Below, one piece after another: positions 1,284 through 30,726 of a stretch of 33,155 nucleotides of DNA (the stretch's first letter is position 1; the number at the start of each line of letters is the position of its first letter). The notes under the pieces are model-generated. The model was not told where the DNA came from. It saw only the letters and a list, made by a program, of their open reading frames with translations, and did not search any database. A program made the position numbers and the translations under genes. Source of the stretch: a bacterium (GTDB taxonomy: Bacteria; Patescibacteriota; Microgenomatia; UBA1400; PJMF01); the NCBI GenBank assembly GCA_900299405.1, contig OMJP01000042.1, forward strand, positions 1 through 33,155, read 5' to 3'.

Positions 1284-1353
1284 AAAGCTTTAATTTTTCT
1301 TAGTGAATTAGCATTCTAACGTTTTGACTGCTAAATAGCAAGTTATAAAAAAG

Positions 1354-1427
1354 TGGGTATGCCATGACTCGAACATGGGACCTCTGTCTTATCAGGACAG
1401 CGCTCTAACCAACTGAGCTACACACCC
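1354..1427 (-). tRNA. tRNA-Ile (GAT)
   Basis: Cloverleaf GGGTGTG-TA-GCTC..GAGC-G-CTGTC-CTGATAA-GACAG-..-CCATG-TTCGAGT-CATGG-CATACCC on the reverse strand; anticodon GAT; CCA not encoded. Confidence 0.93.
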
Positions 1428-1535
1428 GTTTTTGATAAATGGTATTGTAACACGAGTAGCACCAGAGCAAAACTTATTCTAACTCTCGTTTTTTTGATCT
1501 ATTTGATGTACATTTTGATCTTGTAAGGCATATTT

Positions 1536-2096
1536 ATGATTACCCTCATAGCTGGGCCAAGTGGCTCAGGAAAAACAACTTTAGCTCAATATCTTGCTGG
1601 TAAAAAACCATCGGTGATAGTTTCTCTGGATGATTTTTATTTTAGTAAAGAAACGAAACCACGCATTTCGTCTGTTGGCATCTGGGGAAATGATCCTAAT
1701 TACTGTGATGCAGAGAGCTTGATAGAAGTGGCTTCCGCTTTGAAAGAGGGCGAAAGCACTTTGTCTCCCAAGTTTTCCTTTTTAACTCAGGATCGTACTG
1801 ACCCGCAACTGATTGAGCCCCAAAAAAACATTATTGTTGAGGGACTATGGACATTAAACTTTCCCGCTCTAAGAGAGTTGGCGGATTACAGAATTTATTT
1901 AGAGGTGCCATATAAAATTCGACTTGAAAGACGTCTGGAAAGAGATATGCAAAGAGGTAGAAACAAAGAAGCCTCGCTCTCGATTGCCCATGAGGTAGAT
2001 AGTATGGCCGAAACCCATGTAGAGCCATTCAAAAAATTTGCCAACATTGTTATTGAAACTAACTCCGAGGGAGAAACTTTCGTCCGTCGAGATTGA
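1536..2096 (+). CDS. P-loop kinase of the uridine kinase / phosphoribulokinase-like family
   Basis: Walker A GPSGSGKTT, then VSLDDFY and VEGLWTL..LRELADYRIYLEVPYKIRLERRLERDM, the uridine kinase-like layout. Confidence 0.75.
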   Translation: MITLIAGPSGSGKTTLAQYLAGKKPSVIVSLDDFYFSKETKPRISSVGIWGNDPNYCDAESLIEVASALKEGESTLSPKFSFLTQDRTDPQLIEPQKNIIVEGLWTLNFPALRELADYRIYLEVPYKIRLERRLERDMQRGRNKEASLSIAHEVDSMAETHVEPFKKFANIVIETNSEGETFVRRD

Positions 2097-2097
2097 C

Positions 2098-2388
2098 CTA
2101 TTTATTTTTTCCGTAAAGATTTTTGAGAATTTTTCTGTAATAAGAGATGTTTTGTCTAAAGGTGTTTAAACCTTGTGTTTCTTTTGCTTTTATTCTTCCC
2201 CACCAGGAGCCATAGTTTCTATTAACGTCTTTTTGGATTTGTTTAATGGCGTTATGGGACGCCTCTATATTCGCCAACAATTCTCCTTCGGAATATTTTT
2301 CCTTAAAATCTCCTTCAGCTTCTCTGGCAAGGTAGTCTCTTTCACTTAAGCTTTTTGCCTCTATTGGACCTTGGTTGATTTTTGACAT
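2098..2388 (-). CDS. Hypothetical protein, 96 aa, charged/helical
   Basis: Intact ORF ending 2 nt from the convergent kinase ORF; no recognised motif. Confidence 0.5.
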   Translation of the reverse strand: MSKINQGPIEAKSLSERDYLAREAEGDFKEKYSEGELLANIEASHNAIKQIQKDVNRNYGSWWGRIKAKETQGLNTFRQNISYYRKILKNLYGKNK

Positions 2389-2410
2389 AGTTTTCCCAAT
2401 TATACCTACT

Positions 2411-2434
2411 AAAAAACCACCTGCTAGGGTGGTT
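2411..2434 (-). terminator. Rho-independent terminator downstream of 16S rRNA
   Basis: Reverse strand AACCACC-CTAGCA-GGTGGTT followed by a T-tract: 7-bp stem, 6-nt loop, located ~125 nt after the 16S 3' end. Confidence 0.8.
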
Positions 2435-2442
2435 CTTTACAA

Positions 2443-2469
2443 TCTGAAACAAACAAAGTGGTGAAATTG
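2443..2469 (-). other. 3' half of the pre-16S processing stem
   Basis: Pairs with 4154..4180: 24 Watson-Crick pairs, 2 G-U pairs and 1 mismatch over 27 positions. Confidence 0.85.
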
Positions 2470-2561
2470 GCCTGGATATGGTGGTCACAGGACTTGTAAT
2501 TTCATCCCGCTTACGCGGGAAGGGAGAAAGGGGGTCGTGATTCCCCTACCCATCTCCTTAG

Positions 2562-4037
<1,476 letters not shown>

Positions 4038-4153
4038 AAAGTTTTAAAAACATATTTAAGAGTATTGAAGCTGATTTTCTGATTTTGATTATCTAGATCA
4101 ATACTGTTTATTGGAATTAACGAGTTTCCTATTTCATAAACCCATTAATGTAA

Positions 4154-4180
4154 CAATTCCACCACTATGTTTATTTCAGA
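4154..4180 (-). other. 5' half of the pre-16S processing stem (leader)
   Basis: Leader RNA UCUGAAAUAAACAUAGUGGUGGAAUUG is complementary to the trailer at 2443..2469. Confidence 0.85.
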
Positions 4181-4383
4181 AACACAGTGATTGTTTGTCG
4201 TTGTCTTTTCACTTATTAAGGCGCCTTCAAAAAATAGAAAAAAAAGAAACAACTCTGTGGGAGATGTCTCTTTGCATGATGCCTTTTGGTTGCCCAAGTA
4301 CATCACTCTGGTGTTTTTCAATTCTCTCTGTAGGCAGTGAGAATTATTGAAGTGTTGGTATTGTAGCAAGCTTCATAGGAAAG

Positions 4384-5460
4384 TCAAAGGAGAGTTGCTC
4401 CACCCAAACACTTAATTAACTTTTTTTCTTTATGGTAAAACACTGCCGACTGACCGCTGGCGATGCCTTCTACTGGTTTTTCTGTTTTCACTAAATAGTT
4501 TTTGCCTTGCTTGGTGATTGAGCAGTTAACTAGTTTGCCGGTGTTGCGGATGCGGACTTGCAGGTCGCTTGAATTCAATAAGTCTTGCTCGTTTGCTCCG
4601 ATCAGGTGAAGATTTGCTACTGTAAATTCTTGTGCTGCAGTAGCTTGTTTTGGTCCGATGACTAGTTGGTTTTTGTCAGCATTTTTCTTGATGACGTAGA
4701 GGGCTGGCAGCTCGGTTTTGTCGAATTCTGGGTGCTGCTGGGCATATTTTTTCTTGTCATAAGTAAAACCGTGGCGTTGACCGACGGTGTAGAACCAGAG
4801 TCCACGGTGTTTACCGATGACGTTGCCTTGATCGTCGATGATTTCCCCCGGTTTTTCTCCTAGATTTTCTTTGAGAAACTTCGGTACGTTGATGTCGCCA
4901 ACGAAACAGATACCAACCGAGTCTTTTTTGTTCGCTACTGGGAGGTTTTTTTGTTTAGCTAATTTTCGCACTTGGTCTTTGGTCAAATCTTGTAAGGGAA
5001 AAATGACGTGAGCTAATTGTTCTTGTTTAATTTGATAAAGAAAATAGGTTTGATCTTTGTGTTTGTCTTTAGGAATATAAAGACACTCGCCATCGGTGGC
5101 AGCATAGTGACCAGTGGCGATAGCATCGTAACCCTGTTTCATCGCCCAGTCGTAAAATAAACCAAACTTAATGATTTTGTTGCACATCACGTCAGGATTG
5201 GGAGTGCTGCCCGCTTCATACTCATCCAAGAAATACTGCATCACTTGTTCCCGATAAGCTTGTTTGAGATCGAGTACTTGAAAGGGAAGATCAAGTTGCA
5301 AAGCAACCTGAAGAGCATCTTTACGATCATCCTCGGCCCGACAACCAGGTTCTTTCCAACACTCAAGATAAACAGTGTCGACTTGATGACCTTGCTCTTT
5401 GAGCAAGACAGCGCTGACCGCGGAATCTACTCCACCAGATAATCCTAGTAAAACTTTCAT
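4384..5460 (-). CDS. mnmA: tRNA-specific 2-thiouridylase MnmA
   Basis: MKVLLGLSGGVDSAVSAVLLKEQGHQV PP-loop; TPNPDVMCNKIIKFG; ATGHYA; GICFVGD; HRGLWFYTVGQRHG. Confidence 0.96.
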   Translation of the reverse strand: MKVLLGLSGGVDSAVSAVLLKEQGHQVDTVYLECWKEPGCRAEDDRKDALQVALQLDLPFQVLDLKQAYREQVMQYFLDEYEAGSTPNPDVMCNKIIKFGLFYDWAMKQGYDAIATGHYAATDGECLYIPKDKHKDQTYFLYQIKQEQLAHVIFPLQDLTKDQVRKLAKQKNLPVANKKDSVGICFVGDINVPKFLKENLGEKPGEIIDDQGNVIGKHRGLWFYTVGQRHGFTYDKKKYAQQHPEFDKTELPALYVIKKNADKNQLVIGPKQATAAQEFTVANLHLIGANEQDLLNSSDLQVRIRNTGKLVNCSITKQGKNYLVKTEKPVEGIASGQSAVFYHKEKKLIKCLGGATLL

Positions 5461-18618: not shown

Positions 18619-18692
18619 GCGCCAATAGCTCAGCTGGATAGAGCAACTGCCTTCTAAGCAGTAGGTCACAGGTTCGAATCCTGTTTGGCGCA
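18619..18692 (+). tRNA. tRNA-Arg (TCT)
   Basis: GCGCCAA-TA-GCTC..GAGC-A-ACTGC-CTTCTAA-GCAGT-AGGTC-ACAGG-TTCGAAT-CCTGT-TTGGCGC-A. Confidence 0.95.
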
Positions 18693-18741
18693 CAAGCTTT
18701 TAGTACATTAACATGTCAAATTTAGTTTTTATAATTAATTT

Positions 18742-19224
18742 ATGCCAATTGTAGGCTGTGGAATTTGTGACAAAAATTTTTATGTTAAACCTAGTCATCA
18801 AAAACTAGGTTGGGGTAAATATTGTTCTCTTGAATGCAGATCTAAATCTCAACTAAAAGGAAAATTTTTTAATTGTTTGGTTTGTAAAAAAGAATTTTAT
18901 CGTTCTCCATCGAAAATAAAACACTCCAAAAGTGGCAACTTTTTTTGCAGCAAGGCTTGTCATATGGGTTGGAAAAATTCTCAAGCAATTGAAGAGAGAC
19001 ATCCTAATTGGTCCGGAGGCACACAAGCTTATAGAAATATTTTGAAAAGAAGTGGCAGAAAAAGATATTGCACTGGTTGTAAAATTTCTGACAAAAGAGT
19101 TTTAGTGGTTCACCACATAGACCAAAATCGTAAAAATAATGATTTATCAAATCTCGCTTGGCTGTGCCAAAACTGTCACCATTTGATACATTATCACAAA
19201 AATTTTAAAATTAAGTTTGACTGA
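18742..19224 (+). CDS. HNH endonuclease with two N-terminal Cys-rich zinc-finger repeats
   Basis: CGICDKNFY..YCSLEC, CLVCKKEFY..FCSKAC, then CTGCKISDKRVLVVHHIDQNRKNNDLSNLAWLCQNCHHLIHYH, a classic HNH layout. Confidence 0.88.
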   Translation: MPIVGCGICDKNFYVKPSHQKLGWGKYCSLECRSKSQLKGKFFNCLVCKKEFYRSPSKIKHSKSGNFFCSKACHMGWKNSQAIEERHPNWSGGTQAYRNILKRSGRKRYCTGCKISDKRVLVVHHIDQNRKNNDLSNLAWLCQNCHHLIHYHKNFKIKFD

Positions 19225-19240
19225 GAGTCATTAACATTAT

Positions 19241-19315
19241 GGTGCCTGTAGCTCAGGGGTTTAGAGCGCCGCTCTGTGGAAGCGGAGGTCGCGAGTTCAA
19301 TTCTCGTCAGGCACC
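19241..19315 (+). tRNA. tRNA-His (GTG)
   Basis: Extra G-1 opposite C73, GTGCCTG/CAGGCAC acceptor, anticodon stem CCGCT-CTGTGGA-AGCGG, TTCAATT T-loop. Confidence 0.93.
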
Positions 19316-19319
19316 CATC

Positions 19320-27533: not shown

Positions 27534-27655
27534 AACAAAACTTAGTTTAACGCAAGTTACGGTTAATGTCAGGTTTGCTTTTTATACTCGAGATTAGATC
27601 TGGAAATGGCACTATTACGGTTTTAATATTTGTGTGCTATAAGAAAGAAACTATT

Positions 27656-28006
27656 ATGGAAACTGGTATCACCCTACAACAAATCTCTGATCTGCTTGAT
27701 AGGAAGCTCGAGGAAAAACTTGAACAAAAATTTGATGAAGCTTTTGGTGAAAGACTTAACTTAATTCTCGATAAAAAATTTGATGAAGCTTTTGGTGAAA
27801 GACTTAACTTAATTCTCGATAAAAAATTTGATGAAAAGCTGGCACCAATTCACAAACAACTTAAATCACATACTCGGCGCCTGAAGACTCTCGAAAAAAA
27901 TCGAGACACAATGCTACTAGTACTAGATAGGGAGCAGTCGCGGCAAGCTAAACGTCTTGATAGAGTGGAAGATCATTTAGGCTTATTACCGCTTTCACAA
28001 TATTGA
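27656..28006 (+). CDS. Small coiled-coil protein with tandem 16-aa repeat
   Basis: METGITLQQISDLLDRKLEEKLEQ(KFDEAFGERLNLILDK)x2 KFDEKLAPIHKQLKSHTRRLKTLEKN... Start set at ATG 27656 rather than 27566. Confidence 0.7.
   Translation: METGITLQQISDLLDRKLEEKLEQKFDEAFGERLNLILDKKFDEAFGERLNLILDKKFDEKLAPIHKQLKSHTRRLKTLEKNRDTMLLVLDREQSRQAKRLDRVEDHLGLLPLSQY
27728..27823 (+). repeat. Perfect 2 x 48-bp in-frame tandem repeat
   Basis: aaatttgatgaagcttttggtgaaagacttaacttaattctcgataaa occurs twice without mismatch, then a partial third copy (aaatttgatgaa). Confidence 0.95.
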
Positions 28007-28076
28007 TGCCCGACTAGGATTCGAACCTAGATTAACGGCTTCAAAGGCCGCTGTCCTGCCATTAGACGATCGGGCA
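28006..28076 (-). tRNA. tRNA-Gln (TTG)
   Basis: TGCCCGA..TCGGGCA acceptor; anticodon arm GCGGC-CTTTGAA-GCCGT; GGTTCGAATCC T-arm. Confidence 0.93.
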
Positions 28077-28118: not shown

Positions 28119-28880
28119 TCAAGGTTTCTTGAGAACTACGTAGTGATTGAGGTTGCCGGACTTACCGTCGGCATTGTATTGTTCGACCAGCTCCAATCCA
28201 GAGTCAGCGATCAGCTCCTCCATTTCCTGATCGTCAGTGAAGTGGCAGTAGCGGTAGGCAGTGACTTGTTTTTGCCAATCGAGAATGTAGTCGTTTACTT
28301 CGAGATCTTCGGGATCGATCTCAACCACGCTAGGATGAATTTGTTTCTTTTCTAGTCTGGCCTCGTTGAGAAATTTCCAGGCTGTGAAGACTAGAAAACC
28401 ACCAGAAGTGAGTGAATTACCTAGCGAAACAACCAACTCTCGGCGCAGTTTTCTCGAGGGAATGTGATGCAGTACACCGAATAAAGTTGTCAGGTGATAT
28501 TTTTTGTGAGGTAGTTTTTCCTCGAAAGAGCCATCGAGCAGCGACTCGACCAGATCAGTCACGATAAATTCTTGCTCAAACTTAAGCTTGGCTAGCTTTT
28601 TCTCCGCAAACTCCAGCAAGTCTTGGCTATTGTCCAGGCCGTGATAAACCAGGTTTTTGTGCACTTTATTGCGAAAAAGGAACTCAGCGAAACGAGCGTT
28701 GCCACAACCGACATCCAGCACCTTGAACTGATTTTTTTCTTTTGTCAGGGGCTTGATAATCGGCAGTAAATCTTTCCAGCCTTGCCAATAAAAACCTCGA
28801 GTTTGACTGAAAGCTGCCGCCGTTTGCTGGTAGAAACGAGCATTGATCTCGTTGAGTTGCCGGATAAGTGAGACTTTCAT
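28119..28880 (-). CDS. SAM-dependent methyltransferase resembling Trm9/ALKBH8-type tRNA (carboxymethyluridine34) methyltransferase
   Basis: LNEINARFYQQTAAAFSQTRGFYWQGWKDLL..FKVLDVGCGNARFAEFL: the FSQTR-x-x-x-W pre-motif followed by DVGCGN is typical of Trm9/ALKBH8. Also LFGVLHHIPSRKLRRELV..LTSGGFLVFTAWKF and C-terminal YRYCHFTDDQEMEEL...GNLNHYVVLKK. Confidence 0.75.
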   Translation of the reverse strand: MKVSLIRQLNEINARFYQQTAAAFSQTRGFYWQGWKDLLPIIKPLTKEKNQFKVLDVGCGNARFAEFLFRNKVHKNLVYHGLDNSQDLLEFAEKKLAKLKFEQEFIVTDLVESLLDGSFEEKLPHKKYHLTTLFGVLHHIPSRKLRRELVVSLGNSLTSGGFLVFTAWKFLNEARLEKKQIHPSVVEIDPEDLEVNDYILDWQKQVTAYRYCHFTDDQEMEELIADSGLELVEQYNADGKSGNLNHYVVLKKP

Positions 28881-28902
28881 TGGTACAATATGAGCTCCTG
28901 AT

Positions 28903-30726
28903 ATGAAACGTTTTAATTATACCGATCATCTGGACGAAGTGCTAAAGGTGTTGCGTGAGTTGGAGCAAGCTCCTCATCTAGACACCACCTATTTGCAGAA
29001 AGTCTTGAAGCGCTACCCGCTGAAAGACGGCTCGATTTTGTCCAAAACCAAAGTTATTACCGCTTACAAAAAGCTGGCAGGAAAACATGGTCTGCAGCCT
29101 TACTACGAGAAATTGGTCAAGAAAATCATGATGAAACCGACCAGAACAATCTCTGGGGTGGCGCCAGTGACGGTGCTAACCAAGCCTTTCCCCTGCCCTG
29201 GCAAGTGTATTTTCTGCCCCAACGACATCCGCATGCCGAAATCCTACATGAGTGACGAACCCGGAGCTCAGCGGGCCGAGCGTAATTATTTCGATCCCTA
29301 TCTGCAGACTTACAACAGACTGAATGCTTTGTACGTCATGGGCCATCCGGTTGATAAGGTTGAGCTAATTGTGTTGGGCGGCACTTGGTCTTACTACCCT
29401 GTGCCCTACCAAATTTGGTTCATCAAAGAATGTTTCCGAGCGATAAATGATTTTGGCAAACGAGATGATCGGGAAAAAATTCGCCGCTTTTACCGAAAAA
29501 AACAACAAGAATTTGAAAAAAATAAACAGCTTTATTTAACCGACAGTCCTGAGAAAAACAAAAAGGCTTTTGAGAAACTGGAAATTCACGGTGAGGAACT
29601 GACCAAACGCTACAACCAGGTAGTCTCGGAAGTCTATACCGCTCCAGAGAAAAAACTAGGGATCGATGACTATCAGAGTGCTGCCTGGGATGAATTATTT
29701 AAAGAGCAAAAAATCAATGAGACTGGTGAGATTCGCAACGTAGGTTTGGTGCTAGAAACTCGCCCTGACAATATTTCCGAGGCTGAGGTGGTGCGCCTGA
29801 GAAAGTTTGGCTGCACCAAGACTCAGATCGGGGTGCAGAGCCTGCAGGATGAGGTACTGAGGAAAAACCACCGCGGTCATGACGTGGCTGCTACCCGTCG
29901 GGCTTTCGCTTTGTTGCGCCAGGCTGGTTTCAAGATTCACGCTCACTGGATGGCGAATCTTTATGGTTCTGATCCCGAACTGGACAAACAGGATTATGAC
30001 CAGCTGTTTGCTGATCAGGATTTCCGACCTGATGAGCTGAAGATTTATCCCTGTTCGCTGATCGACAGCGCTGAGCTGATGAAGTATTACCAGGATGGCA
30101 AATGGCAACCCTATACCCACGAAGAGTTGCTAGAGGTGCTAACCCACGTGATGCTGAATACTGAGCCTTATTGTCGGTTAACCAGAGTAATCCGTGATAT
30201 TCCCTCTCCCGACATCGTAGTGGGCAACAAAAAAACTAACTTTCGTCAGATTGCCGAGCAGCATCTCAAAAAACTGGGCAAACAATCTCAAGAAATCCGA
30301 GCCAGAGAGATTCGCGGTGAAAAATTTGATCCCGATAAAATCAAACTCAAAACTGTGAAATTCAGCACTCAGGTGAGTGACGAGCAGTTTCTGCAGTACG
30401 TAGTGCCAACCGATCAGGGTGAAAAGCTGCTAGGCTTCATGCGTCTTAGCTTCCCCAAGAAAAATGGCTTTATAGACGAGCTAGATGGCAGCGCCATCAT
30501 TCGTGAGATCCACGTCTATGGCCCAGCCCTCAAGATTGGCACCAAGGGCAAAAGACACGCTCAGCACTTAGGATTGGGCACTAAGCTAATTGAAGCAGCC
30601 AAACAAAGAGCTAAAAAACTAGGTTATAAAAAACTCTCGGTGATCTCCGCCATCGGCACCAAGGAATATTATCGGAAAAAAGGTTTTAGGGATGGTGATC
30701 TGTATCAGTACCAAGAATTAGTCTGA
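28903..30726 (+). CDS. elp3: Elp3-family tRNA uridine(34) carboxymethylation enzyme (radical SAM + GNAT)
   Basis: RTISGVAPVTVLTKPFPCPGKCIFCPND radical SAM Cys cluster; VELIVLGGTWSYYP; GLVLETRPDNISEAEVVRLRKFGCTKTQIGVQSLQDEVLRKNHRGHD; GNAT GKRHAQHLGLGTKLIEAAKQRAKKLGYKKLSVISAIGTKEYYRKKGF. Confidence 0.95.
   Translation: MKRFNYTDHLDEVLKVLRELEQAPHLDTTYLQKVLKRYPLKDGSILSKTKVITAYKKLAGKHGLQPYYEKLVKKIMMKPTRTISGVAPVTVLTKPFPCPGKCIFCPNDIRMPKSYMSDEPGAQRAERNYFDPYLQTYNRLNALYVMGHPVDKVELIVLGGTWSYYPVPYQIWFIKECFRAINDFGKRDDREKIRRFYRKKQQEFEKNKQLYLTDSPEKNKKAFEKLEIHGEELTKRYNQVVSEVYTAPEKKLGIDDYQSAAWDELFKEQKINETGEIRNVGLVLETRPDNISEAEVVRLRKFGCTKTQIGVQSLQDEVLRKNHRGHDVAATRRAFALLRQAGFKIHAHWMANLYGSDPELDKQDYDQLFADQDFRPDELKIYPCSLIDSAELMKYYQDGKWQPYTHEELLEVLTHVMLNTEPYCRLTRVIRDIPSPDIVVGNKKTNFRQIAEQHLKKLGKQSQEIRAREIRGEKFDPDKIKLKTVKFSTQVSDEQFLQYVVPTDQGEKLLGFMRLSFPKKNGFIDELDGSAIIREIHVYGPALKIGTKGKRHAQHLGLGTKLIEAAKQRAKKLGYKKLSVISAIGTKEYYRKKGFRDGDLYQYQELV

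Follow-up and report, generated by a model that had tools for sequence, protein, structure and literature searches.

A divergent gene pair encoding Elp3 and a Trm9-like methyltransferase as a probable bacterial route to mcm5U34

In the window (i.e., the whole analysed stretch of 33,155 nucleotides from contig OMJP01000042.1), a methyltransferase gene and elp3 stand back to back. This arrangement raises the question of whether two adjacent bacterial genes could build a wobble-uridine modification that is held typical of eukaryotes. The original prediction had proposed such a pathway, and the ORF coordinates show that its reading frames, strands, divergence, and 22-bp spacing were all correct (Table 1). 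The motifs that it had named are also present, namely FSQTRGFYW ahead of VLDVGCGN, and YRYCH...GNLNHYVVLKK at the C-terminus of the methyltransferase. Promoter-like sites in the region of the pair were not more numerous than in shuffled sequences. Elsewhere in the window, the stretch 18619-19316 holds tRNA-Arg(TCT) and tRNA-His(GTG) with an HNH-endonuclease-like ORF (18742-19224) between them, a layout that by eye recalls a mobile homing gene. Furthermore, a tRNA-Ile(GAT) gene and ORFs resembling spurious rRNA readings at ~1353-4300 suggest a putative rRNA operon.

Table 1. Positions of the gene pair and of related features in the window
Feature	Position	Strand	Remarks
Trm9/ALKBH8-like class I SAM methyltransferase	28119..28880	-	253 aa
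Elp3	28903..30726	+	607 aa; radical SAM and GNAT domains
Gap between the start codons of the divergent genes	28881..28902	.	22 bp
Promoter-like site TTAGCA-18-TATAAT	28916..28945	-	weak; could serve the methyltransferase
tRNA-Gln(UUG) gene	28005..28076	-	predicted substrate
MnmA, tRNA 2-thiouridine(34) synthase	4384..5460	-	382.6 bits on NF001138 (cut-off 284)

The pair probably constitutes a bacterial wobble-uridine pathway, in which the cm5U34 formed by Elp3 becomes the ester mcm5(s2)U34 through a Trm9-like enzyme that does not need Trm112, and which stands in for MnmE/MnmG. In the proposed scheme, the stand-alone Elp3 would use SAM radical chemistry and acetyl-CoA to convert U34 to cm5U34 in tRNAs such as tRNA-Gln(UUG), and the Trm9-like enzyme would methylate the cm5U34 carboxylate with SAM to give mcm5U34. 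The latter enzyme would act without Trm112, and the pair would take the place of MnmE/MnmG. The gene for MnmA shares the window with the pair; MnmA would supply the s2 part, making mcm5s2U34 the possible product. Gene and genome evidence supports the original interpretation well; we infer cm5U as the intermediate, a methyl ester as the product, and the identity of the substrate tRNAs.

The assignment of Elp3 is straightforward, with 464.3 bits on TIGR01211 (cut-off 350) and the radical-SAM cysteines at C98, C102, and C105. Residues K152, K344, E535, and Y589 correspond to K77, K193, E386, and Y441 of DmcElp3, which have acetyl-CoA roles (PMC6367351). Formation of cm5U34 in tRNA has been shown for M. 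infernus Elp3 (PMC5372719, PMC7663514). Elp3 proteins of the window's family carry an insertion of ~80 residues (~185-264) in the radical SAM domain, which is absent from DmcElp3; Ellagibacter Elp3 also has an insertion in this domain, but a different one.

The methyltransferase (METHYLTRANSFERASE) matched generic class I methyltransferase models only in Pfam, and no NCBIfam equivalog scored above its cut-off. A profile of 32 relatives (A1) placed Yarrowia Trm9 (5cm2_Z) at the top of 160 PDB sequences (2.6e-17; runner-up 1.4e-11). Among the best 3 of these 160 alignments, only that of Trm9 extends across the C-terminal RY-C/Y-H motif. A further profile (A3), led by the homologue from Dehalococcoides mccartyi, again ranked 5cm2_Z first, here of 117 sequences (3.8e-32; runner-up 1.7e-28). 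Single-sequence searches were weaker, with Trm9 second for the window protein and fourth for a Dehalococcoidia homologue. Mutants of ScTrm9 at R29, H115, R241, Y243, and N271 have lower tRNA affinity and kcat (PMC5372719). Four of these five residues are kept in the window protein as R28, H139, R210, and N245 (equivalent to R29, H115, R241, and N271, respectively), the correspondence between S. cerevisiae and Yarrowia Trm9 being based on motif context. In the columns of alignment A2, H139 and R210 are invariant, R28 is retained in at least 90%, and N245 is fully or almost fully conserved throughout the phyla, apart from some Anaerolineales, where N is lost; with this exception, all four persist even at 17-30% identity.

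Phylogenetic proof of Trm9 orthology was also attempted. Trm9 grouped with two archaeal homologues (97/86), the deep branches remained unresolved, and the AU test rejected neither the pairs with Trm9 (p 0.17-0.27) nor the pairs apart from it (p 0.33). The predicted kinship to Trm9/ALKBH8 over other methyltransferases stands as the best profile match in the PDB, and the deep tree does not decide for it. The structure prediction proposed as a check gave a confident class I fold (AlphaFold2, pLDDT 94.9), for which Foldseek ranked 5cm2 first, by a small margin (3.6e-13; next 5.2e-13); for the D. mccartyi homologue, Trm9 came only seventh, yet with the lowest listed rmsd (2.4 A). Since class I methyltransferases are too alike for a fold comparison to be strong proof, the predicted fold is only compatible with Trm9 and not diagnostic of it.

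Trm9 of haloarchaea has been reported to work with Trm112. Eukaryotic Trm9 also works with Trm112, and a 2017 review found no genes in bacteria that resemble those for Trm112-dependent methyltransferases (PMC5372719). The PF03966 model detected Trm112 in 8 of 14 control genomes and in 12 of 109 relatives, these 12 belonging to other families; it gave no hit in any genome of the window's own family, in line with the prediction of a system without Trm112. Because eukaryotic and haloarchaeal Trm9 need Trm112 and none was found in the own family, we have filed the protein as Trm9-like and apparently Trm112-independent, not as Trm9 proper.

In our first survey of same-family genomes, nearly all of those with both genes had the adjacent, divergent pair, and the four members without elp3 (G001, G019, G021, and G025) were also without the methyltransferase. 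Genome contigs were then scanned with A1, i.e., with the methyltransferase profile only and no elp3 criterion. Nearly all matches of at least ~145 bits divergently adjoined elp3, and most of those that did not were close to the end of a contig. None of the generic methyltransferases, at scores below 65 bits, was beside elp3. The scan is mildly circular, as 8 of the 32 rows of A1 were picked up via elp3 loci; the query did not contain the Dehalococcoidia homologues, which came to light later. The pairs came from Patescibacteria, Dojkabacteria, Chloroflexota, Myxococcota/Deltaproteobacteria, Acidobacteriota, Fermentibacteria, Ignavibacteriota, and Actinomycetota. The adjacency is far beyond chance and, as the original prediction required, not unique to the window contig. 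Of the three refuting conditions set out with that prediction, the two on clustering with unrelated methyltransferases and on unique adjacency did not refute it.

Among 231 Patescibacteria genomes, 64 had both genes, 1 the methyltransferase alone, 21 elp3 alone (one of them with a low-scoring adjacent methyltransferase homologue), and 145 neither. The two genes lay within 1.5 kb of each other in 55 of the 64 genomes, and all 55 pairs were divergent. A Chloroflexota sample of 201 genomes, drawn from the phylum of an Anaerolineales genome, gave 37 with both, none with the methyltransferase alone, 1 with elp3 alone, and 163 with neither; 34 pairs were within 2.5 kb, all divergent, and one genome (G526) retained both genes though they are 641 kb apart. 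Hence elp3 occurs in about a third of the sampled Patescibacteria and a fifth of the sampled Chloroflexota, accompanied by the methyltransferase in about three-quarters and nearly all of these genomes, respectively. The corresponding Fisher p-values for co-occurrence (2.6e-37 and 1.1e-39) ignore shared ancestry and are overstated, as the surveyed genomes have common ancestors. Cultured organisms are included. One locus (L155) encodes an Elp3 that matches DmcElp3 (PDB 5l7j) at every one of its 459 residues, with a divergent methyltransferase homologue 43 bp away, and the gut actinobacterium Ellagibacter isourolithinifaciens DSM 104140 has a back-to-back pair (L085).

It counts against the best explanation that some 20 Patescibacteria genomes carry elp3 but not this methyltransferase, and therefore cm5U may have other fates. 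A look at 14 additional Patescibacteria loci, most of them from elp3-only genomes, revealed no methyltransferase next to elp3. In three Patescibacteria genomes with elp3 and without the methyltransferase, a short asparagine-synthase-like ATPase (PF00733) flanks elp3 (L137:1954-2805, minus strand; L144:2536-3324, minus strand; L149:2822-3613, plus strand). This ATPase is a candidate enzyme for the amidation of cm5U to ncm5U.

Among the tRNAs classically known to carry mcm5s2U34 in eukaryotes is tRNA-Gln(UUG). In the window, its gene follows the methyltransferase gene on the same strand, 42 bp downstream. The gene order downstream of the pair was examined for tRNA genes in 27 family genomes; tRNA-Gln(UUG) was found at most 2.3 kb away in 20 of them, in 19 cases on the strand of the methyltransferase, and those stretches yielded no further tRNA species. 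This synteny was not seen at the few loci examined outside the family, and shared ancestry could explain it. A small predicted coiled-coil-like ORF adjoins the tRNA-Gln gene (27566-28006) and contains a ~50 bp tandem duplication (KFDEAFGERLNLILDK repeated).

Whether the pair replaces MnmE/MnmG was the remaining part of the prediction. With an assembly that is only 71% complete, gene absences in the genome of the window are weak evidence. Across 109 relatives, mnmG was found in none, and mnmE in none above the cut-off, its hits being partial and confined to the G-domain portion of the model. In Patescibacteria, mnmG was present in 5 of 231 genomes, none with elp3, and the exclusion was not significant (p 0.16). 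Since mnmG is rare there with or without elp3, its absence says little, and we rejected it as proof of replacement. In Chloroflexota, mnmG occurred in 0 of 38 elp3-positive genomes versus 80 of 163 elp3-negative ones (p 3e-10). Besides, only 2 of 33 genomes from many phyla, reached via loci of the methyltransferase family and nearly all pair-bearing, had mnmG. Therefore, the Elp3 pair and MnmE/MnmG behave as alternatives, and the idea of replacement is backed by mutual exclusion in Chloroflexota. In 83 of the 201 Chloroflexota genomes, neither elp3 nor mnmG was over threshold.

Co-occurrence indicates a shared pathway and not a particular reaction. The methyltransferase could thus modify what Elp3 has made, or that anticodon loop, in a different manner, at another atom of the C5 side chain, at the ribose 2′-OH, or at a neighbouring base, and the final nucleoside would then not be mcm5U. 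The position of Trm9 Y243 speaks for this possibility, as it is C212 in the window protein (RYCH, typical of its family), and we have counted this against our best explanation. However, many relatives retain RYYH or RFYH, with Y at this very position in several including D. mccartyi, and the remaining four of the mapped Trm9 residues persist in spite of the low identity. We therefore regard a different modification as unlikely, though it is the strongest of the alternatives.

Bacillus subtilis MnmL/MnmM (YtqA/YtqB) teams a radical-SAM enzyme with a methyltransferase, and CmoM esterifies a U34 carboxylate. These precedents allow for another bacterial line of U34 methyltransferases beside elp3, either MnmM/MnmC-like (acting on nm5U) or CmoM-like (forming the cmo5U ester), with a related but different reaction. 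Nevertheless, the mnmG needed to produce the MnmM substrate is missing from all 109 relatives and from all but 2 of the 33 multi-phylum genomes, no MnmM-type Pfam hit or NCBIfam equivalog over cut-off was obtained, and CmoM (8joz) reached 49 bits with A3, far below the 114 bits of Trm9. Identity with MnmM or CmoM was ruled out on these last grounds, and we hold a reaction of this kind to be very improbable. That a generic small-molecule or protein methyltransferase adjoins elp3 by chance or mere synteny, as the generic hits in curated libraries might suggest, is hardly credible given the near-obligate co-occurrence of the two genes and their divergent adjacency in phylum after phylum, retention of both when unlinked (G526), and generic methyltransferases from the same scan that never adjoin elp3; a generic UbiE-type identity was ruled out by profile ranking and genomic context.

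The probable Elp3/Trm9-like pathway resembles the eukaryotic one, in which Elongator (Elp1-6) works with Trm9-Trm112 or ALKBH8-TRMT112, in having an Elp3 radical-SAM/acetyltransferase for making cm5U34, a class I methyltransferase bearing the signature residues of Trm9, and tRNA-Gln(UUG) as a substrate, established there and predicted here. It differs in consisting of two adjacent bacterial genes, in lacking AlkB and RRM domains, and in s2 that would come from MnmA; moreover, the own family yielded no Trm112. Archaeal Elp3 and Trm9 homologues share with it a stand-alone Elp3 beside a Trm9 homologue, and mcm5s2U is predicted for them (PMC2584109, PMC5372719). However, Trm112 is available in archaea, whereas the present system is bacterial, has a conserved divergent layout, and shows exclusion of elp3 from mnmG genomes in Chloroflexota. 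As early as 2008, the combination of Elp3 with a clustered Trm9 homologue was pointed out in Sulfolobus (S. solfataricus) and predicted for Haloferax (PMC2584109). Thus, the pair is not unprecedented outside eukaryotes. We found no description of a bacterial Trm9-Elp3 pair in the literature searched, a scope that excludes subscription papers and preprints, and the claim that the pair had not been described as a bacterial system holds to that extent, next to the archaeal cluster.

The D. mccartyi Elp3 (PDB 5l7j) has the same kind of neighbour as the window Elp3, and the available parts of its literature (PMC6367351, PMC7663514) mention neither that methyltransferase nor the final nucleoside. 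A 2020 review confines bacterial Elp3 to the Dehalococcoides clade and states that direct evidence on U34 derivatives is lacking (PMC7663514). The bacterial MnmE-MnmG system (with MnmC or MnmL/MnmM) likewise modifies C5 of U34 in split-box tRNAs, has the same decoding role, and is combined with MnmA. In contrast, its enzymes and chemistry are unrelated (GTP, FAD, and folate; aminomethyl products), and mnmG never occurred together with elp3 in the Chloroflexota sample.

A broader claim appears reasonably likely, namely that Elp3 and a Trm112-independent Trm9-like enzyme are a general second bacterial solution for U34, giving mcm5(s2)U and not (c)mnm5(s2)U, in many phyla and for the most part not together with MnmE/MnmG. 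For bacterial Elp3, the pairing predicts a specific nucleoside, which can be searched for by LC-MS in cultured species. If true, a nucleoside held typical of eukaryotes would be widespread in bacteria, including Patescibacteria, Chloroflexota, and a cultured actinobacterium of the gut, and mcm5U would no longer be a eukaryotic signature. It would also explain split-box decoding in some bacteria without MnmE/MnmG, by a minimal system free of Trm112 and, presumably, of the other Elongator subunits.
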